DNA of 64,000 nucleotides from Paralichthys olivaceus (Eukaryota > Chordata > Actinopteri > Pleuronectiformes > Paralichthyidae). The stretch covers positions 10,738,501 through 10,802,500 of the forward strand of contig NC_091113.1 of assembly GCF_024713975.1 (NCBI RefSeq), read 5' to 3'. Of the stretch, positions 8,058-57,100 are shown piece by piece. The notes under the pieces were generated by a model. The model was given only the letters and a program-made list of their open reading frames with translations, was not told where the DNA came from and made no database searches. Within the stretch, counting starts at the first letter, position 1, and each line of letters starts with the position of its first letter. The position numbers were made by a program, and so were the translations under genes.

Positions 8058-8946
8058 TTAAAGGAAAGACCCCATGTCCAGGTCCATAAACGTGTCAGCG
8101 TCCATGCTAAAAGAAGAGTCGTAGCTCTGCGTGTTCTGATGCATCTTCTGATGGTGCCGCAGGTTGGACTTGCTGGAAAAGCTCTTATCGCACAGCAGGC
8201 AGGCGAAGGGCTTCTCTTTGGTGTGGATCCTCCGGTGACATATGAGCTGAGTGGACACGCGGAACGCCTTTCCACAATCCAGGCACTGGTAGCGCTTGGG
8301 CTCCGTGTGGATGCGCCGGTGGTTCTTGAGGGCCATCAGGTTGGTGAACTCTTTCTGGCAGATGGAGCAAAAGAAGGAGCCCGTCTTGTGGCTGTTCTTG
8401 TGGTTGAGCAGGGAGCCGGCGTGGCGATAAGTGCGGCCACAGTGCTCACAGACGTGGCTCTTCTCCTCCGTGCCAGCAGTGTCGTTCTGTGAATCGGTGA
8501 TGCTTCCTGGAATGTGGGACAGGGGTGGTGGAACCTGCTTGTGCATGCCGTCAATACCCATAGTCGGATTTATTCCTGAGTCCCAGCCAAAGTTGTCCTC
8601 TATGGGTTCATCCTCAGCTTGTTGATATGGGCCCTGATCCCTGTGGTGCATGTCATGGTGCTGCTGGTAACTGTCTGTGGTGGGAAAGCTCTGCTGGCAG
8701 AGGTTGCAGACAACAGCCCGCTCCTTCGAGTGCACCTCCATGTGGTTCTGCAGGTGTGTGACCAGGCAGAAGGTCTTGCCACACTCGGGGCAGCAATGAC
8801 GCCTCATCTGAGAGTGAATCTGCAGAGTGAGAGAATCAGGAAATGTCTGGAGACACAAGGTACAATGGTGGAGGTTTTCGGAGTGTGTCTTTTTATGGTT
8901 GAGGAGGGAGCCAGCGTGACGGTAGGAGCGCCCACACAGGTCACAC
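8058..8946 (-). CDS. znf646: znf646 coding exon 3 (fingers 25-32, C terminus)
   Basis: Starts after 'ctgctgcag' and restores the frame THR-CDLCGRSYRHAGSL. Encodes eight fingers, the last three in regular tandem array, and a short acidic tail ending DMGSFL with stop TAA at 8058-8060. An earlier in-frame ATG at 8858 is not the true start because the splice joins upstream codons in phase. Confidence 0.85.
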
Positions 8947-11900
8947 CTGCAGCAGGGATATGTTTATGTTCAGTCCCTAATAACAAACTGTAATCCAGAT
9001 CATTTAAACCAAAAGCAAATTACTTCTAAAACAGCAAATTACTGATACTAATATTCCTTTACTATGATTAAACATTACTATACTGTTAAAAACTAAATTT
9101 GTAAGCCAATATTGCTAATTTTAAAGAAGCAGTAAATACATAAACATTTATCATAAGGAATCTGTACATATGTTTTTTCAGTGTTTAAATCAATATATGT
9201 ATTGAGCAGGAAATTTCTCAGCTGAACATTAAACTTGTCAGTACTTAGACAAAATAAATCAAGCTATCGGCTTAACTTATGCACTCATACAGTTACATCT
9301 GATAAAACTAATATTGGCCAATTTATCTAATCAGTCGGGTCAGGATAGTTTTGATAAACAAAGAGAAAATACGTGAGAATAAAACTCCAACACTCAGGTC
9401 GAAATAGAACTTTAACTCACGTGAAGCACTTGTCTCCTCTCTCTGACTGCTGGACTCCAGCTCTTATCGAGCTCCCCTGACCTCTGCGGCAGCGGTGTCT
9501 CTTCAAACCAGACCTGCCCTGGAAACTCTTCCCACACGCAGCACAGCTGAAGTGACTCGCCATGCGGTTGTGGACCCTCTGATGGTTGTGCAGGATGCTG
9601 GCGAGGCGGAAGGCCTTTCCGCACGTGAGACACACATACTTTTTCTTCTGTGTGTGGATGCGCGTGTGATTGCGCAGAGCCATGGGGTTAGTGAAGGGCT
9701 TAGAGCAGAAGGTGCAGCTGAAGTGTCCGGTCTTGTGGGTATTTTTGTGGTTGAGGAGTGAGCCTGCGTGGCGATAACTGCGATTACATATGTTGCATTT
9801 GAAAGGGCGCTCCTCTTTTCTTGGAAATATATTTGTTTGAGCATCACTGCTGCCTGAAGGTGTATCGCAGGTGTGGGCTGCCAGTTGGTCAACAGAGAGA
9901 AAGGCCTGTTTACATTCCTTACACTTAGTGGCTCTGGGTTTTAGGCCCCTCCTGCTTCTGGCCCCTTCGTTTCTGAGGGCCGCACAGACGTGAGCTGATA
10001 GCTGCTTCTTTCCTCTAAAGCCTTTCCCACAGTTTTGGCAAGAGTGCTTTTTAAAAGCAAAGTGGGTGCGCAAGTGGTTTTTCATTGCTAGTTGATTGGA
10101 GTAACTGTTGTTACACACAGAACAGTAATATTCACCAGTTTTATGGGAGTTTCGGTGGTTGACCAGACTTCCTGCATGGCGATACGTACGCCCACACTGA
10201 TCACAGGCGAAAGGTCGTGGGTCGCCCGTTTCCTCAGATTTTACTAAGGTCTCATGCTTTGTTTGAGCCGTTCCCCCTGCTGGTAGTCGCCTGGAGCGTC
10301 GAGTGGAGGTAGAGGCCTGATTGGAATTTGAAGTCAAGGGCTGCATTCCTCCGTCTGACCTGGTCCCATTCATCTGCATGAGGGCCTGGATCTGGTTGTT
10401 GAGTTCCTGGATTTTGGCCTGGTTCTCTTTGTGCCGTCGCTGGTGGTTCAATAGCTGCTTCTGAATTTTGAAGGCTTTCCCACACTCATTGCAAGTGTGT
10501 CTGTGGGAGGAGAGAAGAGGGAGTTAGTTAATGCTGAGTTTGAAATACAGGGAATAGCCTACACAAGGATGAGAGCCATGATGACAAACCACATTTGTAT
10601 CAGACTTTATATGCCAGTTTTACAGTTTTTCTTTACAAGCATTGGCAATTTGTAACATGAGTGAAAATTTGAATTTTTGTATACTTATTAATTATGTTAC
10701 CAACCTCTTGATGTCAAAGTGGGATCTCTGGTGGTTTTTTAAGGCCAACAGGTTGTAGAAGCGTTTCTGGCAGACAAGACATCTGAAAACACCTGTTTTG
10801 TGGGACTTTTTGTGGTTAAGGAGGGAGCCTGCGTGTCTGTATGACCGTCCACATTGATCACATTTGTACTGACGAGCCTCTGTGGCGCCTGTTTCTTTAA
10901 CGTGGCTTGTGTCCTCATACTGGGCAACATCATTCACTTTCATTTCCTCTTTACAATTGGCTGACGCATCTTCCCTCTGTGCTGTGCAGCTGTGGTTCTC
11001 AAGATGATGGTAGCTGGTGCAGAATATTCCACAGCTGCCGCAGATGATACTCTGTAGTTCTTCCGTGCCTCCGGACACATCGCAGTTGTTCATATGTAAA
11101 TGATTTACATCATCTACCTGTTCCTTGTTATGTACAAGCTGATGGGTAATCAGGTCCTGCCTGTTGGCAAAACTTTCCCCACATGTGCTACAGATCATCA
11201 TCTCTCCCAGCTCGTCTTTCACTTCTTCATGGGAGGACAAGGATGAAGGCCCTGAGCTTGCAGGAGTACCGTGAGACTGTGTGTGCCCTCGGAGGTGGCT
11301 CCTCAGAGCCCGCATGCTGGTGTAGCTGTTTCCACATATAGAGCACTGATAAAGATCTCCATCATCATCTTCCTCCTCCTCTTCAGCGTTTTCATCCTCT
11401 GCGTCACCATTCAGCTGATGACTGCTCATATTTTGATGGAAATTCTGATCGAAGTAACTTTGCTCGCCATGGCTACCATTTAGACCATGGAAGTCGACAT
11501 TACTCACTGGATTTCCGACAGAATAGTGACCATTACTGTCCTGGAAGTTAACATTACTCTCACTACTAGTTGTGTCATGTTGCTGTTGTAACAGCGGACA
11601 ACTGTGAGACTTAATCCCTGCGATATCTGCAAAAGTCTCACCACAGTCTGCACACATGTGCCTCTGCATCAGGTGTTCATTGTGAGGTAGATGCACTGTC
11701 ATATCCTGGGAAAAGTCCTGATTAAACTGCTCGTGGTACAACGATCCATTGTTGTGTTCAATTCCATTCTTCAGATCAATATCAAGCATGGGCTGGGTGT
11801 CGTCTTCCTCCTCTTGTGAGGAGAAGCAACCCTGTTGATTCTCCAGAGTCAGAGGCTCTGAGGAGAGCCAGTCTCCCTCGGCGTTGAGGCTAAAAGATGA

Positions 11901-13313
11901 CGGCTGAGCTTTGTGGAGACGAAGATGACTTTTGAGGGCAGCGAAGTGAGGATAACTCTTTCTGCATACTGAACACTGGTAAATCCCAACCTGATGTGAC
12001 CTTTTGTGGTTGATGAGGCTCCCAGAGTGCCGGTAGCTTTTACCACAGATTTGACACTTGAAGGGACGCTCATTAGAATCTACAGTGGAAGTCTCTTCGA
12101 ATTCAGTTGTATTGTCATTGTGTTGTGTGTGCGCCAGGACAGGATCAAGAATGCTTGCGTCTATGATTGGAGGTTCTCCCTGAGTGCTACTGGAAGATGG
12201 AGTTTGATTATTGGAGCAGTCTGAGTACACATGACCATTACTTGCTATTTGCTCCTGCGGTGGATCAAAACCTCCAAGATTATCTACTGATGATACTGAG
12301 GGAATATTATTTATAGGAGATGCATAAAAATTCGACTCAGGCGAAGCAATACTGTTGTCATATGATATATTGTGGTTCTCTGACATGGCATCTTGAAGGC
12401 CAAATGACATGGATGAAGAGTTATGCATTTGGATGTGTTCTTGGAACTCTTCATCACTGGGGAATAGTACCTGACACAAGTGGCAGAAATTTACTTGAGC
12501 GTCCTGGTTCTGAGGTGAAAACTGGGCGAGTGGTGTGCTGGTGAACGACCCACCCATGGAACCAGGGTCTGTCCCGCTTCTCGACTTGTGAGTTCTCTGG
12601 TGGCTGTAAAGAGCAGCCATGTTATTGAACAGTTTGAAACAGACCGTGCACTCAAACATTCCAACCTGGTGAGTCTTTTTATGGTTGGTCAGGCTTCGAT
12701 GATGAATATATGATTTGTCACACAAATCACATTTGAAAGGTCGATCTGCTGCATCATCAGAGGACTCTGCTTGTGCATTATAAATGTCCTCTGTCTTGTC
12801 CTCAAATGGGCTATTTTCTGTAGAAATTCCGACGCTAGCTAAATGCTCATTGGGATGATGTGGTCGATCATTTTCAATTGCATGACTATTTTCATGAGCA
12901 GGATATTCCGCATCCAACTTCCTGAATGACTGCTCTTTTACTCGCCTGGAGAGATGAACCTTCTCGTGTGTAGCCAGCTGTGATGCCAGACGAAAACCCT
13001 TCCCACACTGTACACAGGAGTACTTCTTCTGTGAAGTGTGGCTCCGGAGATGACTCTTCAAGGACAAGGCGTTGGAGTTTTCTTTGCCACATATGTTACA
13101 CTGAAAAGAGCCCACTTCATGAGTCTTTTTGTGATTAGCTAGGCTACCAGCATGCCTGTATCCACGTCCACATTCATCACATTTAAACTTGCGTTCTTCA
13201 TCTTCTTGAAGGTGAGCATCCATGTGTTCAAGCAGACTGGGCATATTGGGACATAACATGCCACATTGTTTGCAAGGAAATCCTGACGTCCTGCCAAGGT
13301 CTTGCGCTGCCAT
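8058..13313 (-). CDS. znf646: Zinc finger protein 646 (three coding exons, about 32 C2H2-type fingers)
   Basis: Putative nuclear DNA-binding protein of the C2H2 class. The coding exons are 13313-10705, 10500-9421 and 8946-8058, joined in phase 2 both times, giving 1,525 residues. Start: the ATG at 13313, reading MAAQDL. Human ZNF646 is of similar size (about 1,830 residues as I recall) and shows the same hallmark: fingers with the core YRHAGSLxNHK followed by a partner finger after a linker of type HKTGxFxC instead of TGEKP. I count eight such modules. About five fingers end in H-x-C rather than H-x3-H. No KRAB or SCAN domain is visible. It sits head to head with znf668, as in human 16p11.2, which supports the name. 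Direct targets are unknown to me. Confidence 0.83.
9421..10500 (-). CDS. znf646: znf646 coding exon 2 (fingers 16-24)
   Basis: Opens with an acceptor 'cccacag' and completes the Arg codon from exon 1. Encodes a finger, then a predicted helical segment (KIQELNNQIQALMQM, a possible short coiled coil), then two YRHAGSL modules and three atypical fingers ending H-x-C. Ends in phase 2 at GTGAGT. Confidence 0.85.
10705..13313 (-). CDS. znf646: znf646 coding exon 1 (fingers 1-15, acidic and Ser-rich spacers)
   Basis: Encodes residues 1-869. Fingers come in pairs separated by long acidic or serine/asparagine-rich spacers, including an EEEEEDDDGD stretch near 11370. Fingers 10 and 13 are degenerate: the last ligands read H-S-C. 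The exon ends inside an Arg codon after 'DIK' at the GTTGGT donor (10704 downward). Confidence 0.85.
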
Positions 13314-14786
13314 TACAAGCTATCAGTTGAATCACGTGTGCCAGACACAGGGTGTTGGAGTATGCAGGGAGGAAATGCATTAGATGCCTTTCTTGTCTGT
13401 TTATAGGGACTTTTCTTTGCAGTGAGGTCCAAGGAGTGTCCTGGGAGGAAAGAGTTTCTCCAGCAGTTGGGAACCAGTTCCAGACGATCAATAGTTGACT
13501 TTAGGAGAAGCAGGCAAATAAAGCTGTTGAGGACAAAAGACAAGACAATTAGAGTGGTGGTTAATACAGAAACAAAAATAGAATTCTGTGTTGTGCAGGT
13601 CACGTATACGCTCACAGTTTCTCTAAATTATTGTAGTTTTTCTCCAATAGTCCCTCTACAATACAAACTTATAATCCACATAATACACATGTAGTTGTTA
13701 AGGATCATCAATAATCTAAACACTTATTTTACTTATTACTGATCCATGATTCAAACATTTCAAAAGTAAAAATAACAAAATGTTGGTCTAACCAGCAGGT
13801 AACCAGAAGTAAAGGATTAATTAAGCTGAATGCACTTAGCTGGAAACTGAGGTGTTTCGTTACATCTCTGCACCAGCATGCTAACTGAACTACCGCTAGC
13901 TATGTCAATAAACCGGGAGACCAACGCCTCTCTCTTCGGATTCATTGCACCTACGAACATTCACAGTATCCGACATCACAAACAAAAGCGGAACGAACAC
14001 ACTCGTACACGTGAGGTTTGAAGAAACAGCCAACAAGTGAATCGCTGTTAAATTGATATCGCGGGGCAGTGAGCTAGCTAACGTTAGCGCGCCACCAGCT
14101 AGCACCACCATCGCGGCTAGCTAAACAAACATTGCACCAAAAAGCCTGGAAGTGGTTTCAAATGCGGAAACGCGACTTAAGCGAGCGCGGCGGATTGAAT
14201 ACCTGCAGCAGCGGCGATTCAACACGAACCTCCGAACATGTCCTTTCATTCATTACTATAAAATACATTATTTTATGCAAAGGGAACCCCCCTTCCCCCC
14301 CGATTGTCTTTTTTTCCGTCCATCCCCTGTTCCCACATTGCTCTTGTTGCTAGGAAACAGGAAATGTGCAGCAGTGAAATCCTTCCCTCTGAAGAGAAAC
14401 TCAGTAGGTGAGCTAAAAGTTGTCGTGAAACAAAATGCGGCGAGCTCAGCGATAAACCAACAACACAGCGAACACTTCACACAAATAAAAACACGTGTCC
14501 ATCTTATTATCACGCCTCGGCTTTCCGTATACATACCAAAATCACGTTGGCTCCCCGGGATTAGCCCTCGTAGCTAACTCCGCCATTGACTTGCAAGCCT
14601 GGGGAATGATCCTGGCTCCAGCTCAGATCGCATGTTTACACGGCAGCTAACGTGCTAACTCAATCAGAACTGTCGTGGTTTTACCCTGTGCTCCTAATGA
14701 TTGTGTGCTGAGTCTTACATTAGCACATTTTACCATCACACGCATTAAAATGCTGCACACTTGTCCGACCGAGGGCTTTCGTCATC
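13314..14786. promoter_or_regulatory. Shared divergent promoter region of znf646 and znf668
   Basis: The two zinc-finger genes point away from each other here. The part around 13900-15150 contains more CpG than its flanks, and repeated GCTAGC/TTAGC-type motifs. No TATA box in a convincing place was seen. A 5' untranslated exon of znf646 probably lies within 13314-13520. Exact start sites cannot be read from the sequence. Confidence 0.5.
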
Positions 14787-14905
14787 ATGGTCCTAGAGCC
14801 GGCCCCCATCCCGCAGCCAGTCACCGTGTCTCTGCGTAAATACACCCGAGCACCAGACATTTTTTCTCCAGGCATCACCCACCAGCCATTAATGTCCCGA
14901 TTCAG
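14787..14905 (+). other. znf668: Likely 5' UTR exon of znf668 with upstream ATG
   Basis: A consensus donor CAG|gtaag follows 14905, and the matching acceptor 'tcttggcag' precedes 15470. The exon begins somewhere upstream of 14787. From the ATG at 14787 a frame stays open through the donor. After splicing it continues out of frame over the main start and stops at 15540-15542. The stretch is therefore treated as leader with an upstream reading frame, not as coding for the zinc-finger protein. Confidence 0.55.
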
Positions 14906-15469
14906 GTAAGAAACGCCGCCGTGTCTATCACGCCCGCACGATGCTAAAAGCAGCTATTGTTAGCGAAATCCACCCCGGGTAACGATGATGACACTGTCGG
15001 TGCAAGCGGTCCTAAAGCCAGCCATTTTGAGTTAGTTAAAAAAAATGCGTAGCAGTCAAGCTAGCGGAGAGGTATACGTACAGATCGTGTCCGGTCGTTA
15101 GCACCATCGCAGGGTCTTGTGGTGTTCGAGCCTCGTCTCCGCTCGTCCTCATGTCCGTCATTCATACACACCGATCTGAGTCATTGCAACTTCCCCTGGC
15201 ATCAAAGCGGTTAGCTTATTGTCCCTGAGGTCCTAATGCCAGCCATTTTGTGATTGAATGCACACCCACATATTTCTGCTATTATGTGATCAGACACATT
15301 TCCTCCTTGTCCCTCTTCAGCCACAGTCACTGACTATTTGTCCAGATCATTCATGTCTTGTAGAGATTTGACCTGATGCCCGTGGAGCAAATCTACAATC
15401 TCATTCTGCTCAAATGATGTTTATTTACATGATTATTACAAAGTCTTTTTTTATGTCATCTCTTGGCAG
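14906..15469 (+). other. znf668: First intron of znf668
   Basis: Bounded by GTAAG at 14906 and AG at 15468-15469. It continues the CpG-richer promoter zone in its first 250 bases. No other feature was seen. Confidence 0.55.
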
Positions 15470-15477
15470 ATGTAAAG

Positions 15478-17454
15478 ATGGCCTCTCCTCAGCCTGGCAG
15501 CCCACCTCTTGCAGAGCAATACACTCCCCCTTCGCAGGATGAAGAGAGCCAGCCAGAGGAAGAGCTGCCGAGGGATCGGCCTGCGAAGAAACGTGGCAGA
15601 GGCAGGCCTCCAAAAGCCAAGGCTTCCTTCAAATGCTCCGCATGCACAGAGGCGTTCAGGAGTCTGTCAGCTCTGCGCAGCCACAAGCTTTCAGCGCACG
15701 TGAAGGATCGCCAGCAGCAGCCGCACACATGCTCTCAGTGCACCAAAACATTCTCGAGCAAGGCTCAGCTCTCAAAGCACGAGCGCACTCACTCGGCCCA
15801 GCGGCCCTTTCAGTGTCCTGACTGTCACAAAGCTTACAAGACCCCCACAGAGCTACGCAACCATAGCCGCTCTCACACCGGGGAGAAACCTTTCATATGC
15901 ACAGAGTGTGGTAAGGCCTTCATGCAGGCTATATGCCTGAGGATCCACATGACACAGCACAGCGGCGAGCGTCCCTACTCGTGCCGTCAGTGCTCTAAGA
16001 GCTACCCCACCCTGTCTAAACTGAAGGTGCACATGCGCTCTCACACAGGAGAAAAGCCATACTTCTGTGCCGAGTGCGGCAAAAGTTTTGCCGATCCCTC
16101 TGTTTTCCGAAAGCACAGGAGGAACCATCAGGGCCATCGGCCGTATGCCTGTAAAGAGTGTGGGAAAACATACACAGAGCTGAAGGACCTGAAAAACCAT
16201 GAGCGCTCCCACACTGGAGAAAAGCCGTATCTGTGCTCAGACTGTGGCAAAGCCTTCTCTCGCTCCTCCTCTCTGGCTTGCCATCAGCGCATTCACTCTC
16301 AGAATAAACCCTATCAGTGTGAGCAGTGTGGCAAAGGCTTCACCCAGCTGTCCTCCTACCAGTCTCACCTCCGCACTCACTCCGGTGAGAAGCCCTTCCT
16401 CTGTCCACAGTGCGGCAAGATGTTTTCCGACCCATCTAGTTTCCGTCGTCACCAGCGAGCCCACTTGGGTTTCAAGCCCTACCCCTGCGATAAGTGTTCC
16501 AAGAGGTTCAGGCAGCCAGCTGATCTGGCCGTGCACGAACGTGTCCACTCTGGAGAGCGACCTTACAAATGCCAGAGCTGTGACAAGGCCTTCGTGGCAT
16601 CCTGGGACCTGCGGCGTCACATGCTTGTCCACACAGGACTCAGGCCCTTTTCTTGCACAGAGTGTGACAAGTCATTCGCTGAGCGCTCCAGTCTCAACAA
16701 GCACCGGCGTGTGCACTCTGGAGAGAGGCCTTTCAAATGTGAGGAGTGTCTGAAGTCATTTGTTGTATCCTCAAGTCTTCGCAAACACGAGAGAACTCAC
16801 CTAGCTGAGCAGTCCGAACAGCAGCAGCAGCAGCAGCAGCAGGAGACGGAGGCAGGATCAGCTTCAGGCTTCACTCCCCACACGACTCTCCCTCAGTTCT
16901 CCTGTACACATTGTGATGCTACATTTGGAACCTGGGATGAAGTTCAGGCGCATGAAAATCTTCACTCCATCGACTCCGCTCCCCCGAATGTTACCAAAAT
17001 TGTGCCACTGGGCTCACACGTCTGTGAAACCTGCCAGGCAGAGTTTGCACAGCTGGCGGATTTACAGGAGCACGAGAAGCAGCATCCCAAGCCGAGGCCT
17101 CATGTCTGCAACAGCTGCGGCAAAGGCTTCCTCAACAAATCTGGACTGCGTAAACACCAGAAGATCCACTCCACCAACAAACCCCACAGCTGCCCCCACT
17201 GCGGCAAAGCCTTTCTGTTTGCCGCCTACCTTCGCAAGCACTTACGGACTCACGCAGACGCTGCCCCGGCCTCCCAACAGCTCACTGACTTGAACATTAT
17301 CCACACGGACCCACTCCCCTCTCCTCCTCCCCCCAGTGAGGTTACCCCCTCCACTGTCGAACCCGGCGCCATATCCCTGACGGTCCCAGTGACTGTACCT
17401 GTGACTGCTTTTCAGACTCTGCCCGAGTACTTGGTGAAAGAAGAGGGACTGTAA
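15478..17454 (+). CDS. znf668: Zinc finger protein 668 (18 C2H2 fingers, single coding exon)
   Basis: C2H2 zinc-finger nuclear protein; mammalian ZNF668 is a putative tumour suppressor linked to p53 stability and DNA repair. The chosen start is the ATG at 15478 ([10 protein letters not shown]), eight bases after the splice acceptor; a TTG-initiated longer frame was rejected. It has 658 residues against about 619 in human. Order: acidic/proline N terminus; an AT-hook-like basic motif ([12 protein letters not shown], residues about 40-51); fingers 1-14 in tandem, most with TGEKP-type linkers; a polyglutamine run of eight; fingers 15-18; a Pro/Val/Thr-rich tail. The gene is divergent from znf646. 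The name rests on finger architecture plus this neighbour; alternative: another long tandem C2H2 protein. Confidence 0.75.
16819..16842 (+). repeat. znf668: (CAG)8 polyglutamine-coding repeat in znf668
   Basis: Eight CAG codons in a row between finger 14 and finger 15. A pure CAG run is prone to length change, so the glutamine number may vary among individuals. Confidence 0.95.
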
Positions 17455-19096
17455 GCTTTTTTTCCCTGTTTCAGACTTTGGGTTCCACAAACATTTAGAC
17501 CCTTAATCTTTTGTGACGTTGGGTCTTATTTTGAAAAAAAAGAAAAAAGTATTGTTTTTCAAAATAACCTTTAAAAAAAAGTCAAAATAGGTTCTGCTAC
17601 ATTTCATTACACTGCTCTGTCACTGTTTTGTATTGCCATGATATTTGTTACATATGATGTTCATATTTTAAAATATACTCGCTACTATAATTAGCCGATA
17701 ATGTACCTGTCTTGTATGTTGTAATCTCATAAAAAAGTGTTGCGAACATACAGTAAATGCTGATTGCCATACAATGTTGTGATTTCTGGTAAACATCTTT
17801 TTATAATACATTTTAATTATAGCATCTCTGAAATTCTTAACATTCTGTATATTTACATCTTATTAACATAATTTCTTTCACTGTATAAGATATTTGTAAT
17901 CACTGTCATCTGATATTATATTAATTGTCAAGTAAAAAAAAGAAGAGTGGAATTCCTGAATATTAAATCAGTAGAATTCAATTTTTATACCAATAAAAAT
18001 GTGTCATGTGCAAAAACTAGTTATATTTATTGTTTCTTTACATGCAACTGTTGCCCATGAAATAAAGTGAGACTGGCTCAGCACATGTCTGGAGGGAAAG
18101 TGTAACACATATATTGATGACAATAACATTTCTTGCACCCAAAAGTACATAATGCAAAGTAAGTGTGGCATCTCTCCATTAGCCCGCTGCAACTTTTGAA
18201 GGTAAGTTCTCATCTCTCACACTTTATTCCCATTAATTTCAATCCATACACATGGTGTATCTGTATCTGTGCGAATGAGAACAAGTGCAGGTAAAGCTTT
18301 AGTGAGTGTGTGTGCTGCAACCTATTATTCAGACAAGAGAAAGGAAAAACGAATGTGACTGAAACAATATATTTTTCTCAGCTGAAATAAACTTTAAATT
18401 CAAAACTGAAATTTCTGCCACGAAGAAAATATCTATCATGGTATATAAACACAGCTGAAAGTGAAATGATTAGTCAAATATATGTAGAATGGTGGAAAAA
18501 GTATTTGGAAGTGAAATCACCAATATCACAAAATGAAAAAAAAAAAGCTAATAAAGGTCCTGCTAATCCTACTTCAGTAAAAGTATCAAAATGTTGCCAG
18601 GAAGACCAACTTAATATATTTAAGGTAAAATGCCTTCTGCAGAAAACTGTAATATTGTACACAAATACACAGCCATGGATTATGCATTAACGTGTAAACA
18701 GAATTTTGCTGCTGCAGCCTTTCGAGGTGGAGCTATTTTTAATTACTTTATACTGTAATGTAGTTGAATCCAGTTTAAAGGGTCATGAGATAAAATTAAT
18801 TATGAGATGATTAACAAAGCAGGAAAGAGTAAAATCTGTAGACTATAATATTATTTTTCTTACATATTTAAAAAATATATTTTCTTTTTTCTGAAACTGT
18901 CTGAAACTCAACTCCTGACAAGATGGAGAGTGGAAAGTGGAAAGTACAAGTACCTCAAAAATGTGATCAAGTACCATCCTTGAGCAAATTGCTTACATTA
19001 CACCACTGTATGAATAGGATCACAATTTAAGCAGAAGTGTTTTTCTTTGTTCCAACCTTTCCACTTTAAGATTACAAACAAGAGCCAGTGGTGACT
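17455..19096 (+). other. znf668 3' UTR and spacer to the connexin gene
   Basis: AT-rich, no coding frame. A polyadenylation signal AATAAA lies at 17992-17997, about 540 bases after the znf668 stop. An acceptor-like 'ccactttaag' just before 19072 suggests the connexin has an upstream untranslated exon, which could not be placed. Confidence 0.55.
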
Positions 19097-19807
19097 ATGG
19101 CAGCGTTAGTAACAGGCCTCATCCCCATCCTGCGGACAGCAGTGGACGCCACCACCACATACACGGGCCGCGCTGTGTGGTTCGGCTTCCTGTGCATCCG
19201 CGTGGTGATCCTCTTCCTGGCCGAGCTGCCCTTCCACAAACTGGACTTGGACTTTGCCTGCAACGGCACCGGGGAAAGCATCTGCATCAAAGCCTGCTTC
19301 AACAGACATTTCCACAAACCCATGATGGTGGCCTGGAACTTCATGTTTGTCCTGACCATCTTCTCCGTGATGCTCATGGAGCTGTTCACCTCTCACCTGC
19401 GCTCCCGGGCCCAGAAGAGGAGCTGCCAGGTGAAGGCAGACATGGAGCTGCAGGGCCAGGGAACAGAGGTGGCTCAGGTTGCGTCCAAAGACACCAAAGG
19501 GCAGATTGTGATTGATCTCCATAGAGACAGAGGCACAGTGGGCTTCTACCTGTTCAGCATCACTCTGCGTATTCTGATTGAATCCTGGTTCCTCTATGTT
19601 CTGTTGTTTTGGAACCTGCCGGCTCTGGATAATGGTCCATTCAATTGTTCCACAGACATTTGCTCTGATTTACGTGTTTGTGTTGTGAGGGCCGCACCAG
19701 AAAAACGCATGTCCATCTATGCTTTGGCTTCTATTTCAGGCATGATTGTTGTTTGTTCGTTATTATTTTGTGTCTATTCCATTGTTCACTATCTTTGCCA
19801 CTTTTAA
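19097..19807 (+). CDS. Divergent connexin (gap junction channel protein), intronless coding region
   Basis: Forms intercellular channels or hemichannels in the plasma membrane. It has 236 residues (about 27 kDa) from the ATG at 19097; upstream GTG codons were not used. Four membrane segments at about 24-44, 76-97, 148-172 and 208-230. Extracellular loop 1 has C55, C63, C67 (C-x7-C-x3-C); most connexins have C-x6-C-x3-C. Loop 2 has C184, C189, C195 (C-x4-C-x5-C, the usual spacing) and the PEK element before the fourth helix. The C-terminal tail is almost absent: the protein ends a few residues after the last helix. A single coding exon is usual for connexins. I cannot assign the orthologue. 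Confidence 0.8.
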   Translation: MAALVTGLIPILRTAVDATTTYTGRAVWFGFLCIRVVILFLAELPFHKLDLDFACNGTGESICIKACFNRHFHKPMMVAWNFMFVLTIFSVMLMELFTSHLRSRAQKRSCQVKADMELQGQGTEVAQVASKDTKGQIVIDLHRDRGTVGFYLFSITLRILIESWFLYVLLFWNLPALDNGPFNCSTDICSDLRVCVVRAAPEKRMSIYALASISGMIVVCSLLFCVYSIVHYLCHF

Positions 19808-39118: not shown

Positions 39119-40019
39119 TCACCTGTCAGTGAGTTTCTTCAGTGCCCTCTCGATGTTCATTCGGTGTCCCACGCGTGTCACTCCCAGGTCCAAGAAGTCG
39201 TCCTTGGTGAGCGAAGGCAGGTGCGATCCATCAATCTCATTGTCTATAAAACGCTCTCTGTGTTCACCCAGGTTTAGATAAGCCAGCCAGTCTGCAACAT
39301 CGTACTTGGTCCAGAAGGGCAGGGGTTTGACGGCAAAGGGTTTGGCTGGTGGAGGAGGGGTGAGATGGGGATAGTTGAGACAAGATGGGCTGAGGGGCAA
39401 ATGCATTGGGGAGGAGGCTCCAGAGAGAAAGTGGGTAGGGGAGAGAGAGCGGGAGACAAGTAGGGGATTTGGGCTTGGAACACCAGATGGGGAGTACAAG
39501 GGAGGCGTTGAAGCCTGGTAGGCATCTCCTAGAGGGATGCCAGGAGAAGGAGGAGTGAGGGGCCCGGGAAAGTCAAAAGGGTTGTTGTAGACTGGTGTAG
39601 TGGGAAGTATGGGGAGCGAGGAGGGCCTAGGTGGGGTGGGGTTTGGTTGTTCAGTGTTATAGATGAGAGGGCTTGGAGCACGGCGCCGAGAGACTGAGGA
39701 CCGCATCTCTTTAGTCGGACTACACTGGAAATCAAAAGTTTGTCTACGAAACTTGGACCGATGCTTCGGCGATGTTGGGTATGGGCAGTAGGTCGGAGAA
39801 TGGGGAGGGTGGGAATGTACTGGAGATGTAGGCATCTGTGGGGAAGGGGATCGGGTCCAGTTGCGCTGAACTGGTGCTTGAGGAGTAGGGGACATAGAAG
39901 GGGTGGCCGAAAGGTTAGGTGTCAGGATCTGACGGTGCTGTGGGGAGTAGGTGGGTAATGGTGAGGTTGAGCGGCCAGTGGGGGGGCTGTGAAACGCATC
40001 AGTAAAATCTGCTGAATAC
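39119..40019 (-). CDS. shank1: shank1: last exon with SAM domain
   Basis: Encodes a Pro/Ser-rich stretch (RPSSLPILPTTPVYNNPFDF) and the terminal SAM domain beginning FWTKYDVADWLAYLNLGEHR and ending RVGHRMNIERALKKLTDR, stop TGA at 39119-39121. The SAM domain of Shanks polymerises and targets the protein to the postsynaptic density. Confidence 0.9.
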
Positions 40020-46000: not shown

Positions 46001-49000
46001 AGAGGAAAAGCAATAAGAAATATAGCAGTTCCTCACAAACTCAACTGAAATACACTACATAAAGGATATGTTTTTATATTTTGAAACAGGATAAAACCTA
46101 CAGTCTGAAAAAATACCACCAAAATCACTCCAACCAATAAACTGGTATTAACTATAGGGGTATAGAAACACACCCACCATGAAGATTTCAATATTTAATT
46201 ATTCGACTCTGCAATCTTTGGTTCAGTGCATCCTAAAAGGGTTAGTGTTGTTAACACAGTTTTTTTCATGTGCCCACTTTTGACCCTCTTAAAGGAACAT
46301 AGCTGCATAACATAACATGTTACATTCAGAACGCGTCAGTGGAGAAAGCACGGGTGATATGATTTTTTAATATGTGTCCTGAACATCACACTCTAAATGT
46401 GGTATGGTGCATACTGTAGCTTGTTGCATAATCACCCATCAAAGCTCTGTGAGTTGGAAAATGTGTAGGCCAGCTTTTGCTTCACCATACAACTCTTCCT
46501 GTATGATTTGTGAATTATCCTGAAGGTGCAGCAGTAACATTTTTAAAAAAAGTTAGTGTTAGTGTTGTTACTAAAACTCAAACCATCAGAAAAAGTTCTA
46601 AGTGGGTTTCAGTCCAAAATGCATCCTGTTGTTACCTCGATGAGGAAATCCCCCATCCTCAGGCCCGCCCTCCACGCCACACCCCCTTCATCGACTGACT
46701 CCAGGTACTGCAGCGCGGGAAACGCCGGTGTTGGAGTGAACTCCTCTATGGGAGTCTGAGCTGGGGAGGATAAGACAAAAATGATGAGAATGAGTGGACA
46801 CAGATAACGAGAACATGAGTTTGAAAATGAGAGAGGCATCGAGAGATTACAGAGGAAGAAATCGAGCAGGTGAGAGTGAGAAATCTTTAAAGGCAGAGGA
46901 ATGCGGTGAATGTTGATAAAGAAGCTCACCTTTGGCTCCTCTAAGCACAAAGCCAAAGCCCTCATTGTCTTTCTTCTGTAGGAGCACTGTCTTTTCCTTA
47001 ATGATGTAGTCACTTAGAGGGAGGAAAGAGGGAGGAGAAGAGAGGGGGTACAACATGTAGTGAGACAGGGAGAAAAGGAGAGAGAATTGGAGAGGAAGAG
47101 AGCTATATGACTTCTATAGCAAATGAAAAACTGTATCGTCATGCAAATAAAGCATTTATTCAACAGCTATACTGCATAACATGAAATCATACTGCAGCAA
47201 ATATAGGTTGGCTTGAGAATGTCACAAAAAGCGCTGGTGCACAAAAATGGTCAATGGCAGGGATACAGTTATTGTCACAATGGGCGGAAGTGTACATGAG
47301 ATGATGTTCCATACAATGGACTAATCCAGCTACAGCTGACGAGCACTGGGCCACAGCACATTAGAAAAATGTGCACATACACATCACTGATAATGGAAAC
47401 TTCCAAATTCACCTAAATCGCCGCATTAGCTCTAACCGCCCCTGGCAGCTTTTGCAAGGATACTGCTTTACTGACTCCAGCGCATCAATACCAGTCCTAC
47501 ATGACACGTCAATTTATGTACAAGAACAAGTGGGACAGGGCTCTATTCTCCCGCCACAAACAGCTCCTCTCGCTCAAAGTCTGAAAACTGAGAGCAGGCC
47601 AGAAACGGCGATCACTGACATTTGTGATGCAATCTTGTTACGAGACAGTTGGAGTAGTGTATCGCCTGGCCCTGCAAACTCCTTCATTATTCTAATACCA
47701 TGACTGTGACTTTTGGCCAAGCTGCTTTACAACCCTTCCTCTAATACAGGACTGTTTAAATGGACTCCGCACACAGCCACCTCTCATGACTCATTTCTGG
47801 ACTCGACTTTCTAACAATGTCAATTCAACCTGGTTCTGTTGGAGAGCCGGGGGCTTGAGCAGAGCTGTATGATTTAACAGGAATTTCAGATATTTATTTT
47901 CCTGGGCAGCTCATTTCTGTGTTAGCTTGTGCTCATCAGCGTAACTCGAATTGACACTCCAACTGAAATCAAATCAGAGGATTTGATTTCCTAGAAGGGC
48001 TGAACGAGTGAACAGGACAAGTGGCCTGGTCAAAGAGTTGCCTTTATATGCAGTGAAAGCTTGACTGGCAAAACAGTGCAGCAAAAAACCCAGGATATAC
48101 TCAAGGACGTAATTTCCAATGGACAGTCTGTTTTTATCCCTTCCTCTTATAAATAAGAAGTTGGAATCAAAACAACACTGTGCAACTTTTTAAATGTAAA
48201 ATAGCAGAAATTATTTTTGATGACTTGTAAAGGGGAGAATGGAGCCAATTTCATTCCTGCTCCTCATGTCCGTTCTTGCTCTATGTAACTTTGGTGAGCA
48301 GATAGGATCTCCTGTGAGAAGTGCGGAACTGACTGATAGTCAAAGTGCCAAAGTGAAGATCAGATAAAAACACTCAGAAGTCACGTAACACCAGGGTCTA
48401 TCTCCAATACACAACGATAAAACTTTCAAACTATGAAGGGATTCTAAACAGAGATTGACGTATTTGTTACAAGAGCAGCTCTTCTAGGGATCATGGGTAA
48501 TATCCACTGTTCAGTTGTGTTTCAGTTCAGTGAGTTGTACTACGCAGAGCTCCAGGCAAAACACTGACAGGATTTTTTCAACAGGAAAACCACTTCTTGC
48601 TCAGACACGGAGGCCAACAGAATTAACCACCACATGTGCCTGCAGGGGGAGCTGTTGCTCAATTACATAGCATTGCTTGAAATGTGTCAGGCATCGCTCT
48701 TACTCCTTGAGTCCACACACACAAATTCCGCCTCCTCTGTTTGAGTCAGCTGATCCGAAAACCAAAACTGTGGCACTAAATTGAACCTTAATGTTTCTAA
48801 ACCCAATGTAAACACAATGATTTGATTTGCAGCCTGGCAGCCTCTCGTCAGGGTAACTCGGCCATGAAACCACTTAGTAAAACATAAATCAAAGTATCGT
48901 TTAAAATTACCAATGTGTTGTTTCGTTTTGGGGTTTCTGGCAGCATACACCATCACTCCAACTTCATTTTGCCTCACCACTTCTGAAACTTGACCAACGC

Positions 49001-49996: not shown

Positions 49997-51127
49997 CACA
50001 GAAATGACAGGTACCTCAAAAGGAACTGACAAACTGCACTCTTACCACTTGATTCATTCACATACATCCTTCTGTACAGTCAAAATACCTCACATTTTTA
50101 ATGACACACATATATGAAAAAATATGGGATGTGACAGCAGCATTTTTAAAGCAACAGCGATAAATGGGAAGTCCTGGTGAATGAAAAATATCTGCTTAAA
50201 GAAATCATGACTCAAAGAGAATGAAATACACCCACACTGTCTGACTGAAATGCATCAATATGTGCTCTCTTTCACGCACTGACACACACACACACACACT
50301 CAGAAACACACCGGAGGAAGACACAGAAATAAACATGCTGCAGAGTCTCCATTCAATAGCCACTTCCGTCCCTCAGATATTCACACGCACAAGGAAAAAA
50401 TACAGAATTAAGACAGACACTCAAGAGACACACGCACGCACAGAATAGATAGCTTATTAGTCTGTCTTTGAAAAGGCACGGCCTCTCAATAGCATCATCT
50501 ACCTCTCCCCTCTCTCCATTGTCCTCTCCTCACATCCATAGCCAGCCAATGAATGAGGAAACAGCCGCTACCTGTAAATGAACCACACGCTCCTGTTTCT
50601 GGGGCCCAGTGACGGCCACGAAGAAGAGAGGGAGAGAGAGAAATCTCTCTCTCCGCATCCCCCCATTGCCATGTCCCCCCCTCCTCTATCTCGCGCGCTC
50701 TCCACCACCTCCCTCCTCTCTCCTCCCAGCCTCCCTCCTCCTCACGGTCTTCCAGCGAGAGCTCAGCTGAAGAGAGCCGCGAGAGTGGAGGAGAGAGGTG
50801 GGGAACGAGAGAGGATGGAGAGAATGTGCTGCTGTGCACCCTGCATGCATCAGACAAGGGGAAGACAATGCTAAAGGAGAAGAGAGTGCAAGAGAGAGAC
50901 AGGGAAGACCAGCGGTTATCACAACAGGGGGGACATGTACTGTGTAGTGTGTGTGTGATGGTGGACGACAGGGAGAAGGTTTGGTTGCAACATTGGGGAG
51001 ATAGGGAGATGAATTTGAGGGGTGGGGATGCGGGGGATGGGTATAGATGTAAGGCGAGAGAGAGAGAGAGCACATCCACTGACTGGTGTATCAGATATAC
51101 TAACAGCTGATTTCCACCCAGGATTTA

Positions 51128-51159
<32 letters not shown>

Positions 51160-54100
51160 GAGACACACACACTGGCTAACTTTCATCTCGCCCCCTCCTC
51201 TTCTCTAAAGCAGATCTGTCATCACCACACAGGCTAACAAACACTCTGCCGCTCTCTGTCTCTCTCTGAAATAGTAATTGACATTCTCCCAAATGCCGAG
51301 CTGCAGCGAGGGAACATGCACCAGATCACCTTGCTCTTAATTGAGCACCACTTCACCACAGTGCTGCAATTACGCTCTGCCAACTTAACACAGGTAATAC
51401 AACCCCAGTGGCCACTATTTCCATTTAGAAGGCAAGCGCAGCTGCATTAAGGCAAATTCCTTTTCTGAATGACAGTGAGAGCTGCTCAGCTCAAGGGTAA
51501 TGCCAGTGACAGCATGTGAGAGGCTGAAAAACCCTCGGGTGGCAACTGCAAAGTCCTTCTCAGTAGCCATGGGATATAACCAGTGCCTGCTGCTTCAGCC
51601 TCCACATGACTCATCAGGAGAGTGATGTATGTACATGAAAAGATGCATGCACATTAACACTCGGACAAGCATGCATAATATGCAACAGCACCTGCCCTGG
51701 GCTGGGCTGAGCTGCGGCTTTCGACGGATGTCATTGAGGAGAGAACCCCATCCCAACCTTTCATTAAGCCATTATTGTGCTCAGTGTAAACAAGCGACAT
51801 GACAAGAGAGGAGAGGAGAGGGAGGAAAATGAATGGAAGTGACAAGTGTGTTTGTCTGGTGGAGCCAAAAGGGGGGGAAGAGCCGCAAATGACATGGCTG
51901 CTGTCTGTTAATGCTTTCTGCAGCGACATGCTCACAAAGCAAAACAATAGAGAACGGGCGCTTTTCATGATCAGCTCAAATCAGATGCATAGAGCGCAGA
52001 GGAAGACATGAAAGCAAGTGAAACGAGTGTCCACACATGAACACACATGAACACACAACACACACATACACACAGCTCCTCATACCCACAAAACAACTGT
52101 GTGTCATCTACTTCAATCACCTTGAGGCCTCACAATCTTAGCTCACAGCTCAGTTGCTGCCCACACTAACAATCTACATCAGTGGCTGCAGCCAATCAGG
52201 TTTATCCTGTTTTTTTATTATGATATTTGTCTAAACTCTCAACTGATGTGGCTGTCAAATCATTCTCTGGTTTCTCCGGCCATCTCCCACAGTCCAAAGA
52301 CATGCAGATTGCTGTTAGGTTAACTGGAGACTTTACATTTGTGTGGATGTGAGCGTGAATGGTTGTTTGTCTCTTTACGTCAACCGTGCAAAGCACTGGT
52401 GATCTGTACACGTTGTACCCCACCTTTCGCCCAATGTCAGCTATAGGACTGGCTCCACCCCTCCCAGGGACCCAAGGATGAGCGATATAGGTAATAGAAG
52501 GATGGAAGGATGTATGGATGGATGGATGGATGGATGTAACGGTTCAGGGTTTTGGCTGTCACAAAATACATTGGATCACATTGTGGACAATTCTAAACAC
52601 AACAGAGGAGACAAACACAATCACCTCCACATTTACACTTTACTAGCACTTTTTCAAGATTTTCTTCCTTGTCCCCTACACCAGGTTGAAAGCCTCGTAT
52701 CAAAACTGTCCTTACCTGGGGCCGTCAGTGCCGTCGTAAGCTCCAACAGTGACGTTTCGGAAAAGCTTCCTCTTGGCTTTCTCACTACGCGTCTCTGCAA
52801 GACACACGGAGGCAAAGCATATGCTGGATTCAAACTTTACCTTCCGTTATGACACGTCTCCATCTTTTTATAGGAGTGCCGTGTTTTCAGCACAGGCCTC
52901 AAGTGAATCCAATGTATTTACACCTTGTTTTTGTGTCTGTAAACGTTGTGACATATGGTTTTCTTGCTGCGTGAAGGATACAGCTGTGACAATATGAGAA
53001 AATGGAATGCCTGAGCTGTACATGTGCCACTGTCTGCTGTGATAAAATGCCTGCTGGTAAACATGAGTGTGACATGCTGGGTGTTACAGTGACTTAAAGG
53101 ATAATGCCAGCCTGAGGGAGTATGTAACCCATTTTCCTGTGCGTCCCTTCACCAATCTATGAGCTATTTAAACAAATACTATACATCTTAACCCATCTCT
53201 TGATATCGTAAACAATATGAGAGCAATCACAAATATGTCACTAAATGATTTCTTTTATTTAATAAACAAGACTCAAACTGTTGGTCAGCTACAGCTTATC
53301 TCAGAATATTACCACAAAACAGAAAGGATTTTATAAAACCGCTCATACATTTGCCATGAAGAGATTCATATTTTAGAATAACATCATGACATGACGCTCC
53401 CACTGGATCCATCTTACCTGATCGATTGTCTCTGGTGAGAGCCGCCACCTCTTCCACACAGTCTGAGGGAAACCAGCCAGTGCGACCTTTCACTGTTCCC
53501 TCCCAGTATCCCCCCTCTCCCACACTTAATACTGAGGCAGATACACAGACAGATAAACAGATAAAGGACAAAGTTAGATGAATAGAATATAATCTGGGAA
53601 GTACATCCTGTGTCTCTTACTCTCTCACTGTTATACGTCTTTCTTCCAACTCTCCTAGTTTGTCTTTATTAACCTGTTTTATAATAACGTTGTACGATCC
53701 ACTGAGAGGCCCCGGAACACGTATTGCTTTGTGATGACTGGATGCTGGTTCTTCTCATTTCTCTTGTTTGCTATCCTCTCTTCCCTCATGTACGTCTTCT
53801 CCTGGTTGATGTTTTACAGAGTTTATCAATCTGCACTGCAGCTGCACTTTTGTAAAATTTCACCAAATTAGGAAACGTTTAGTAAGTAAAATAGACAACT
53901 CTTGCATGGTTGTGTGAACTGTCGTGACTGATAAAAAGCTTAAAGAGATACTGTACACTTAAATTTATTACATTTATTGCCACATTTATAAAAACAAATC
54001 TGCATTTATGGGCTGAACATGAATCACAACATAGTGTTTCAAACCATCTTGGACCTTGCAGGCCCAGTGATTATGCAGAGTCAATCGTTTGACCTCGCTA

Positions 54101-57100
54101 CGTCTTAAAATTTATATGTATTTGAAAAAGTAAACACCCTTTAATCAAATATTGGCAGCCCCCAGTTACCAGCGACTGCTCGTGAGTGGGAATCTAGAAA
54201 ACTGAGCTTTGCTGAAACTAAACCCTGAAAACCACCATAGTGTCCGTCTTTCAGAGACGTCCCTCATCCTCTCCTGTCTCTTGCCTGTCTCGCACACACT
54301 CTTTAAAATTGTGGCTGAGGTATGCCAGTAGTTCGAACAGCTTGAGACAGCCTTGGTCTTAGCCGTCGGGGAACAGTAGGGGCAAGAAGATATCTACTTC
54401 ACGAAAGTGTGTGTGCTGCTACTGGAGTCGTATTTCATAACCAGAGAACCTAAATAACTTTGATTTATCAAGCTTATTGGTATGTTGTTTGTGTGTGTGT
54501 GTGTGTGTGTCTGTGTGTGTGTCTGTGTGTGTGTGTCTGTGTGTGTGTGTGTGTGTGTCTGTGTGTCTGTGTGTGTGTGTGTGTGTTGAGAGGATAAAGT
54601 TTTATGATGATTTAAAACATAATGCATTTATTATCTCTATGTCATAGTCTGTCCATAATTTGTTGCATCCGTCACTTCCAATAACTTTTCCTGAAAGACT
54701 TTAAACAACTGTGTTGAATGAATACAATCAAAAACTGTTTACTTCTCTACGTGAGCAGCACCAGTGGTTACTGGCAATAACTTAGATTTCCTCTGGCCAG
54801 CCTCGGCCTCCAACATATGGGGTATATGTCGGAGGCCAAGGCTGCTCAGGAGGAATATACACTGAAAAGTAAAAATCAAATATATGGCTCCTACAATAAC
54901 AATATGATCACAATTCTGTTTACATCTTGTGGAGATGAGTTCCCTCATATTTCACCATTTGTTGATTTGGCTCCATCTCACCTTTAACTTTATCCCCTTT
55001 GCTGAGTGAGAGCTCCCTGTCTCCACCAGCAGAGTGGGCACGTGTGGCCACATACATCCGCCCTGGCACCGCACTGTACATACGCTTTATGTGACCTCCC
55101 CCGCTGCCCGCTGAGGTCGCTCTATGGAGGGAGAACAAGAGAGAAAACTGTCAGATTAGACCTTGTCACACACTGTGGAAAACACAAGCAAGACAAAGAG
55201 GGATGACATGCAGCTTGTCAAGCATGTTGAGTCTTACTCATCAGTCTCAGCAACAGGGAGCGAGCATGCTGCAGTCGTGTATTTACTGAGAGTCTGGCAT
55301 TTGGTGCATATCAGGTATGTAGAAAGTACCAACATTATGCTTTGTGCTGCAAGTACAGACTCAGGTCTTTTTTTTCAGGCGGATGTATATCTCTACATTT
55401 CTGTTGCCTCACAGAACAACAACGTCCACTGACACCACACCTAAAATATGTAACTAGCAGTTAAAAATAGTGCATAACCATGCAGCTGAGACACAAATAG
55501 TAATTTCTCTGCATACAGCTGAGGGTAACTGGAAATTAGCGACGCCCTGTTAGTGGATGTCCTCATAAGACCTGGTTGAGAAAGATCCCACCATGTTCCC
55601 TCTCTTTATGTTGACAAAACATTAAATGGTCGGTATTTATACAGCACTTTTCTAGTTTTGATGACCACTCAAAGTGCTTTACTGTACAGTTCACACTTTC
55701 ATTCAGTGCAATTATGTGCAGCACTTTCTCCATCACACTCTGCCGGCCCAGACATCAGGGGTAAGTTGGGGTGTAATATCTTGCCCAACGACACTTGGCA
55801 AGCGGAAAGGAGGAGACTGGGATGAAACTGCCGACCCTCTAGTTAGTGGAGGATCCGCTCTATCTCTTGAGCCATTAGCTGCTTTCCTGCCAGCTCTCTA
55901 GTTAAAAAGTCTGGAGAATGTCCCAATGTGAGAAAACAGCAGGAGATCTTCCGGAGGATTCATTGCGAGCGAGTGGGCGTGTTGAGAACATTTCTATCAC
56001 ACAACAGATCTCCACCTGCTGCACCACCTCTCACCTGAATGCTCTGGACATTTCTGTATGGTTGTGAAAGTGTCTGACCGGAGAATCTCCTGCTGAATTG
56101 GTCATGTGTGAAAGGCAAACTCTGGAGAAAGTCCAGACCCCATTGTGTGGAGTTCCTGTCTGAAAACGACCTGTCCTCTCCCCACGGCTTACTTACCCTT
56201 GTCTACCTCGCGGCTGCCGGTGCCTCTCCTCCGTGTCACTTTGGCCTCCTCTCCCTCTGGATGGGGAGCGGGTACGAGTTCTAGGGCTGCTGGAGCTTCT
56301 CATGCCTATGGAGGCCCTGCGCTGGCCCTGCAGAAACACACCCATAAATGACAGAGTGTCAAAAGCTGATCTATCGTTACTGTAAGAGCCTGAGAAGCGA
56401 TGCATTGTCAGTAATCATATCTAAGAGCAATCAGTGGGTGACCATGAATCTAATGGTCTTCAGTACCTGTCCCGGGTTGGGATTGGTTGCAGCCTTGTTG
56501 GGGAGGGCCAGAGGGTCAGACTGGGTCATGGTGTTATCACTGTTAGCACGCAGTAGGTGGTGGGAATGGAGCGAGGGGAGTGGTAGTGTGTGGGCGCTGT
56601 CTTTTCTTTTGGGAACATACTTTGGCGATTCCAAAAAGGGCACTGGACATGGAGGTGTGACGGTGAGGTTTACAGTGAGGGGTCAGAGGTGAGGAAGGGG
56701 AGCAGGGAGGATGTGACAGGATGAAATGGAGGGAGAAACAAGGTAGATCATTAAGGGGAAAAAGGAGATCATAAAGGGGGGGGGGAGGCAAGTGCTGGGA
56801 TTTTTAAAGATTTCAATATTTAATAGCTCCTTCAGAAGAGGAATTCTGGCTTGAATTCTTACCTACGTCAGTATCTTTGTGGTTTTTGATGATTTCCCCG
56901 AGTTCAAAGTGACCAGACATTACAGCTAGCTGCAAACAGAGAAAACTAAATAAAGTATATAGTTAACGTGGCCTCTCTCTACAACAGGAGAGTTGGTCAA
57001 AAGCACTTAAATTAAAACATCAGTTTGCCAATTTGATTAAAATTCCAAACTGTATTCTCAGTAATAATAATAATAATCGTGAAAACATTTACCTGAAAGG

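Follow-up and report, generated by a model that had tools for sequence, protein, structure and literature searches.

An alternative first coding exon of shank1 is very probably present in the intron that precedes the PDZ exons of the gene, on the minus strand of the 64,000-nucleotide stretch of DNA analysed here (the window, C21:10738501-10802500). Judged from its sequence, the exon would be transcribed from an internal TATA-less, CpG-enriched promoter, would provide the ATG at 50672, and would be spliced to PDZ exon 1, thereby specifying a protein without the SPN, ankyrin and SH3 domains. The sequence-only reading had already interpreted it as an alternative first exon of shank1, an interpretation now supported by its conservation, with substitutions of a coding type, in a paralogue located on a second contig (C5) of the same genome. 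The comparisons from which the model was built cover the DNA sequence of two gene copies in one genome.

Position, frame and signals of the candidate exon

The identity of the host gene as shank1 was established from its full-length PDZ, which was near-identical to solved Shank1 PDZ chains, with 1q3o as the best match. Along the gene, the two SH3 pieces are followed by the exon coding for the N-terminal extension, the candidate exon, and then PDZ, an order that places the candidate between SH3 and PDZ (Table 1).

Table 1. Positions of the candidate exon, its associated signals and the neighbouring exons (window coordinates unless a contig is given)
Feature	Position	Strand	Basis or remark
Candidate alternative first coding exon of shank1	50572..50672	minus	ATG, 33 codons, C5 conservation
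Splice donor GTAGCG	50566..50571	minus	counterpart in C5: GTACCT
Conserved block 5' of the exon, presumed to hold the 5' UTR and internal promoter core	50673..50823	minus	blastn, alignment, CpG
In-frame TGA, 72 nt 5' of ATG	50742..50744	minus	limits frame in window copy
PDZ exon 1, accepting exon (T GAC TAC, acceptor TAAG)	46930..47012	minus	
N-terminal extension (betaN hairpin) exon, replaced	52716..52794	minus	donor CAG/GTAAGG, same phase; acceptor by eye
SH3 second part, skipped	53443..53562	minus	tblastn match limits; first residues look intronic
SH3 first part, skipped	54983..55084	minus	tblastn match limits
Last coding exon with SAM, retained	39122..40019	minus	
C5 counterpart of candidate exon	C5:6039677-6039783	minus	tblastn, alignment

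On the minus strand the ATG at 50672, located in a good start context with G at both -3 and +4, opens 33 codons in all (MAMGGCGERDFSLSLSSSWPSLGPRNRSVWFIY), after which come an AG and the donor GTAGCG, this final AG forming part of a split Ser codon in phase 2. The minus-strand ATG in good context, the 33 codons and the phase-2 donor CAG/GTAGCG were thus found in the sequence exactly as originally claimed, and the proposed join to the PDZ exon at 47012 (T GAC TAC), which reads ...SVWFIYS-DYIIKEKTV, was reproduced in frame from the exon sequences. The distance between the candidate exon and PDZ exon 1 is 3.6 kb in the window gene (C21) and about 7 kb in the C5 gene, where the corresponding junction would join 6039677 to 6032651. 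When scored over the donor and the last three exon bases, matches to U1 amounted to 6/9 in the window copy and 7/9 in the C5 copy; the candidate donor is off consensus at +4 to +6, and two of the three PDZ-exon donors of the window shank1 gene (U1 scores of 8, 6 and 5) score no better. The N-terminal half of the candidate peptide is partly low-complexity Ser/Leu.

Conservation as coding sequence in a second shank1 gene

Searches of the genome (588 Mb in 25 contigs) with the PDZ gave strong matches on five contigs (C21, C5, C1, C7 and C23); a further three, located elsewhere, were weak, with E-values of 0.18 or more. From their PDZ residues and from family sequences, we take the C1 gene to be shank2, and those on C7 and C23 to be shank3. 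The C5 gene proved nearest to the window gene, the PDZ exons sharing 26 of 28 residues and the last exons being 68% identical over residues 11-299 of 299; with C7 and C23 only the C-terminal half or third of the last exon matched (49% and 53%), and C1 was not among the matches listed. We accordingly interpret the C5 gene as a second shank1. The location of the two copies on different contigs, the 68% identity of their last exons and their unalignable introns together suggest that they may be ohnologues; a check of synteny indicated that one ORF neighbouring the window shank1 had no counterpart on C5. The presence of two shank1-type genes in this fish (C21 and C5) is unlike the situation reported for zebrafish, to which a passage of PMC5879542 assigns one SHANK1 homologue.

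With the candidate peptide as query, tblastn located a match in the corresponding intron of the C5 gene, which separates PDZ from the N-extension exon (MAMGACGEEDLSLSLSLSSSWPSLGPVNRSVWFIY compared with MAMGGCGERDFSLSLSSSWPSLGPRNRSVWFIY; 60 bits, E = 1.6e-15), 29 of the 33 aligned residues being identical, and the remaining matches in the regions searched had E-values of 3.9 or more. A peptide search of the whole genome returned two places only, both within shank1 genes (E = 7.3e-12 for the second gene), while a search with the DNA block returned the same two places plus a 24-base opposite-strand match within the query region (E = 3). A repeat-derived exon was ruled out on the basis of these two places genome-wide among the best-scoring candidates, a result that very weak copies could escape. 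The start codon, the G at -3 and at +4, the frame, the CAG/GTA donor and phase 2 are common to both copies, and hence frame and donor, when tested on the paralogues of this genome, were both kept on C5. As expected, an exact-pattern search with the conserved exon end gave 0 matches in prokaryotic and viral contig collections.

Comparison of the two introns (5.7 kb in C21 versus 12.7 kb in C5) by blastn revealed one strong DNA block of 262 columns (72%, E = 2e-32), which spans the exon and reaches about 150 nt 5' of it. Apart from this block the comparison gave 12 rows of 14-39 nt, the top ones (with E-values of 7e-8 and 2e-7) coinciding with simple sequence of GT type on the window side.

Within the exon, 81 of 99 aligned bases agree between C21 and C5, and the only indel is an in-frame one of 6 nt, aligned here to where the Ser/Leu run begins, one of several possible placements. 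The two copies differ in 14 codons, 10 of them synonymous and four non-synonymous, with 3, 3 and 12 differences at codon positions 1, 2 and 3 respectively; the adjacent PDZ exon exhibited a similar pattern of divergence (1, 1 and 9). When the same substitutions were placed at random on like bases, none of 20,000 randomisations altered as few as four residues. A six-frame comparison gave the fewest changes (4/33) in sense frame 0, which is stop-free in both copies; antisense frame 0 had 6/33 residues changed and a stop in both copies, and the other four frames had 12-14. In a tblastx comparison of the introns conducted with the low-complexity filter on, the block was matched in all three sense frames, with weaker rows elsewhere: the match in the coding frame extended over 12 residues with the highest identity (92%, E = 0.003), whereas those in the other two sense frames were longer, less identical stretches, one of which had a lower E-value. 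Taken as sequence evidence, these data show the exon to be conserved as coding sequence in the two shank1 paralogues.

The window intron was also scanned for ORFs that begin with ATG, extend for at least 15 codons and end at a phase-2 AG/GTR donor. One such ORF of at least 31 codons was present in the real intron, together with two further donors carrying ORFs of 17 and 19 codons. When the same intron was shuffled 300 times with dinucleotides preserved, 52% of the shuffles also contained an ORF of at least 31 codons with a donor of this type, and the ORF-plus-donor pattern therefore proves nothing by itself; it is conservation on C5 that lifts the candidate above chance. Although the shuffles are what an accidental ORF and donor would predict, the second shank1 gene keeps the exon at the E-values given above and with coding-type substitutions, and an accident is consequently hardly credible. 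A chance origin was dropped because the paralogue contradicts it, and the unalignable introns argue against an artefact of assembly or of recent copying.

Possible promoter or splice acceptor upstream of the exon

The conserved block upstream of the exon includes two stretches common to both copies, CTCTCGCGGCTC and TCTCGCTGGAAGAC. In each copy the 200-bp segments richest in CpG across the whole intron sit at the candidate exon, the peak segment containing 11 CpG in C21 (GC 0.63, observed/expected 0.63) and 13 in C5 (GC 0.61, observed/expected 0.73); the ratio is higher (0.74) in a distant segment of the C21 intron, which contains 9 CpG. No TATAWA motif was found within about 330 nt upstream of the exon in either copy. 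The coincidence of the CpG peak with the exon in both copies fits the proposed promoter, and an internal promoter upstream of the exon is considered likely from these sequence features.

The same CpG-rich block, reaching about 150 nt 5' of the ATG, might alternatively represent a conserved regulatory element, either an enhancer or an unspliced promoter, in which the open frame is incidental. However, the differences between the copies cluster at third codon positions, the sole indel in the exon is 6 nt in length and the donor is kept, and we regard this explanation as very improbable.

Acceptor-like sites also occur upstream of the exon, 198 and 94 nt before the ATG in the window copy and 244 nt before it in C5, and these lend some weight to the proposal that it is spliced into the full-length mRNA as a conserved internal cassette, which might act as a regulated poison exon and reduce the output of full-length shank1. 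The C5 copy is free of in-frame stops for 486 nt upstream, and use of the 244-nt site would generate an in-frame internal exon of 351 nt, a reading that remains open throughout. In the window copy, by way of contrast, splicing from the preceding exon to the 198-nt site would give a 299-nt exon with a frameshift into PDZ, and to the 94-nt site a 195-nt exon leading to an immediate stop; furthermore, no acceptor-like sites were found at positions common to the C21 and C5 copies. A poison exon, moreover, would need neither coding constraint after the ATG nor a kept ATG context. The cassette was therefore rejected as the main reading and is judged to be an unlikely, if somewhat less improbable, alternative to the regulatory element. 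Because the window copy has an in-frame stop upstream of the ATG and no acceptor is common to both copies, a first exon is favoured over a cassette, with the C5 sequence when taken singly permitting either.

Predicted short product and its relation to known SHANK isoforms

If the candidate is a first exon, transcription would begin at the internal, TATA-less, CpG-enriched promoter at about 50673-50823 and translation at the ATG at 50672, and removal of about 3.6 kb of intron would then join the exon to PDZ exon 1. The resultant short protein is predicted to retain PDZ, the proline-rich region and SAM without SPN, ankyrin repeats or SH3, and the betaN hairpin exon would be swapped for a new N-terminus ending RNRSVWFIYS. 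Such a scaffold should still multimerise and bind PDZ ligands without the functions of SPN, ankyrin and SH3, and its extended SAPAP/GKAP site would be changed, probably to a weaker one. The exon set deduced here from DNA gives a predicted open product of 1,645 residues with SAM at the end, as against the 1,654 residues proposed earlier. A possible 9-nt micro-exon, TGGACAAAG, was observed with AG/GT borders at window position 44713 on the minus strand and could explain part of the difference between the two figures; at this site the Shank2 protein presumably reads VDKAS.

A search with the C5 version showed that the Shank3 N-PDZ chain 5izu contains the stretch homologous to that coded by the replaced exon. 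In a passage of PMC6337207 reporting Zeng et al. 2016, the Shank3 betaN hairpin is described as contacting the extended SAPAP ligand, and alteration of the ligand residues that touch the hairpin as making binding about five-fold weaker. Because the replaced exon thus forms the extended site in Shank3, short SHANK forms can be tested for a difference in SAPAP/GKAP binding. The hairpin exon of the window gene has itself diverged (KLFRNVTVGAYDGTDGPS versus RLFRHYTVGSYDSFDAPS in C5), LFRHYTVGSYD being retained in all four of the remaining shank genes, and this divergence fits, without proving, a shift of role between the duplicates. The conserved SVWFIYS at the new N-terminus is strand-prone. A more speculative proposal, which we advance tentatively and consider doubtful at present, is that the exon serves as a dedicated alternative cap for PDZ, RNRSVWFIYS replacing the betaN hairpin and so switching the SHANK1 PDZ between its high-affinity extended SAPAP site and one that is different or of lower affinity; the window copy might then lean on the short form, with labour divided between the shank1 duplicates.

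Equivalent scans of the matching introns of the shank3-like genes on C7 and C23 detected no ATG ORF of at least 15 codons with a phase-2 AG/GTR donor, and the three such ORFs in the C1 intron, which use two donors, do not resemble the candidate. The shank2-like gene has, at C1:30934296-30934382 on the plus strand, an ATG in a frame that is open immediately 5' of the PDZ exon and contiguous with it (MNLHSGRASVAMLRMMGCANGRSARHLLHSDCVV), the candidate shank2 start being a 5' extension of that exon (MNLHSGRASVAMLRMMGCANGRSARHLLHSDC). By eye this start resembles that of the mammalian Shank2 short form, which we take to read ...NGRCPRNSLYSDCIIEEK, and the resemblance is offered as a lead only: with the Shank2 short peptide as an approximate query, C1 was not among the tblastn matches listed at E < 10, and a search of the five regions with that peptide gave no match better than E = 0.9. 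If the likeness holds, the shank2 short form would arise by extension of an exon and that of shank1 from a separate exon. The analogy with the Shank2 short form drawn in the sequence-only reading consequently stands in kind and fails in anatomy, since the C1 start, as judged by eye, is contiguous with the PDZ exon and the fish shank1 exon is separate, spliced and 3.6 kb upstream.

SHANK2C corresponds to the ProSAP1-CortBP1 short form, and the Shank3 isoforms produced from intragenic promoters start elsewhere. Short SHANK forms from internal promoters are already known in mammals. Human SHANK1 is described in PMC6697638 as having two promoters, which give a long SHANK1A and a short SHANK1B, the short transcript being preceded by an intragenic CpG island, and a passage of PMC9579136 similarly credits Shank1 with two isoforms from different promoters. 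By these descriptions SHANK1B comes from the same gene as the fish candidate, and its internal promoter, preceding CpG island and shorter protein would be matched by the promoter, CpG peak and short product proposed for the fish exon (PMC6697638, PMC9579136). PMC9579136 also refers to SHANK2C as an alternative-promoter short form without ANK and SH3, as the fish product would be, and to several Shank3 isoforms from intragenic promoters, whereas the fish shank3-like introns on C7 and C23 have no comparable ORF. Among the literature matches listed, as titles, abstract openings and passages, there was no description of the fish exon, its peptide or its retention in two copies.

If transcribed, the exon would enable fish shank1 to yield a PDZ-SAM scaffold from a promoter of its own, with an N-terminus kept in both duplicates. 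According to PMC6175061, most Shank3 models disrupt some isoforms only. Were the present model true, knockouts at the ankyrin or SH3 exons would likewise spare the short form, and mutants should target PDZ or later exons.

Elsewhere in the window, a connexin-like ORF was recorded at 19070-19804 on the plus strand (Pfam PF00029, E = 3e-24), and C2H2 zinc-finger ORFs, as judged by eye from their translations, are clustered at 8061-17451, with members on each strand.
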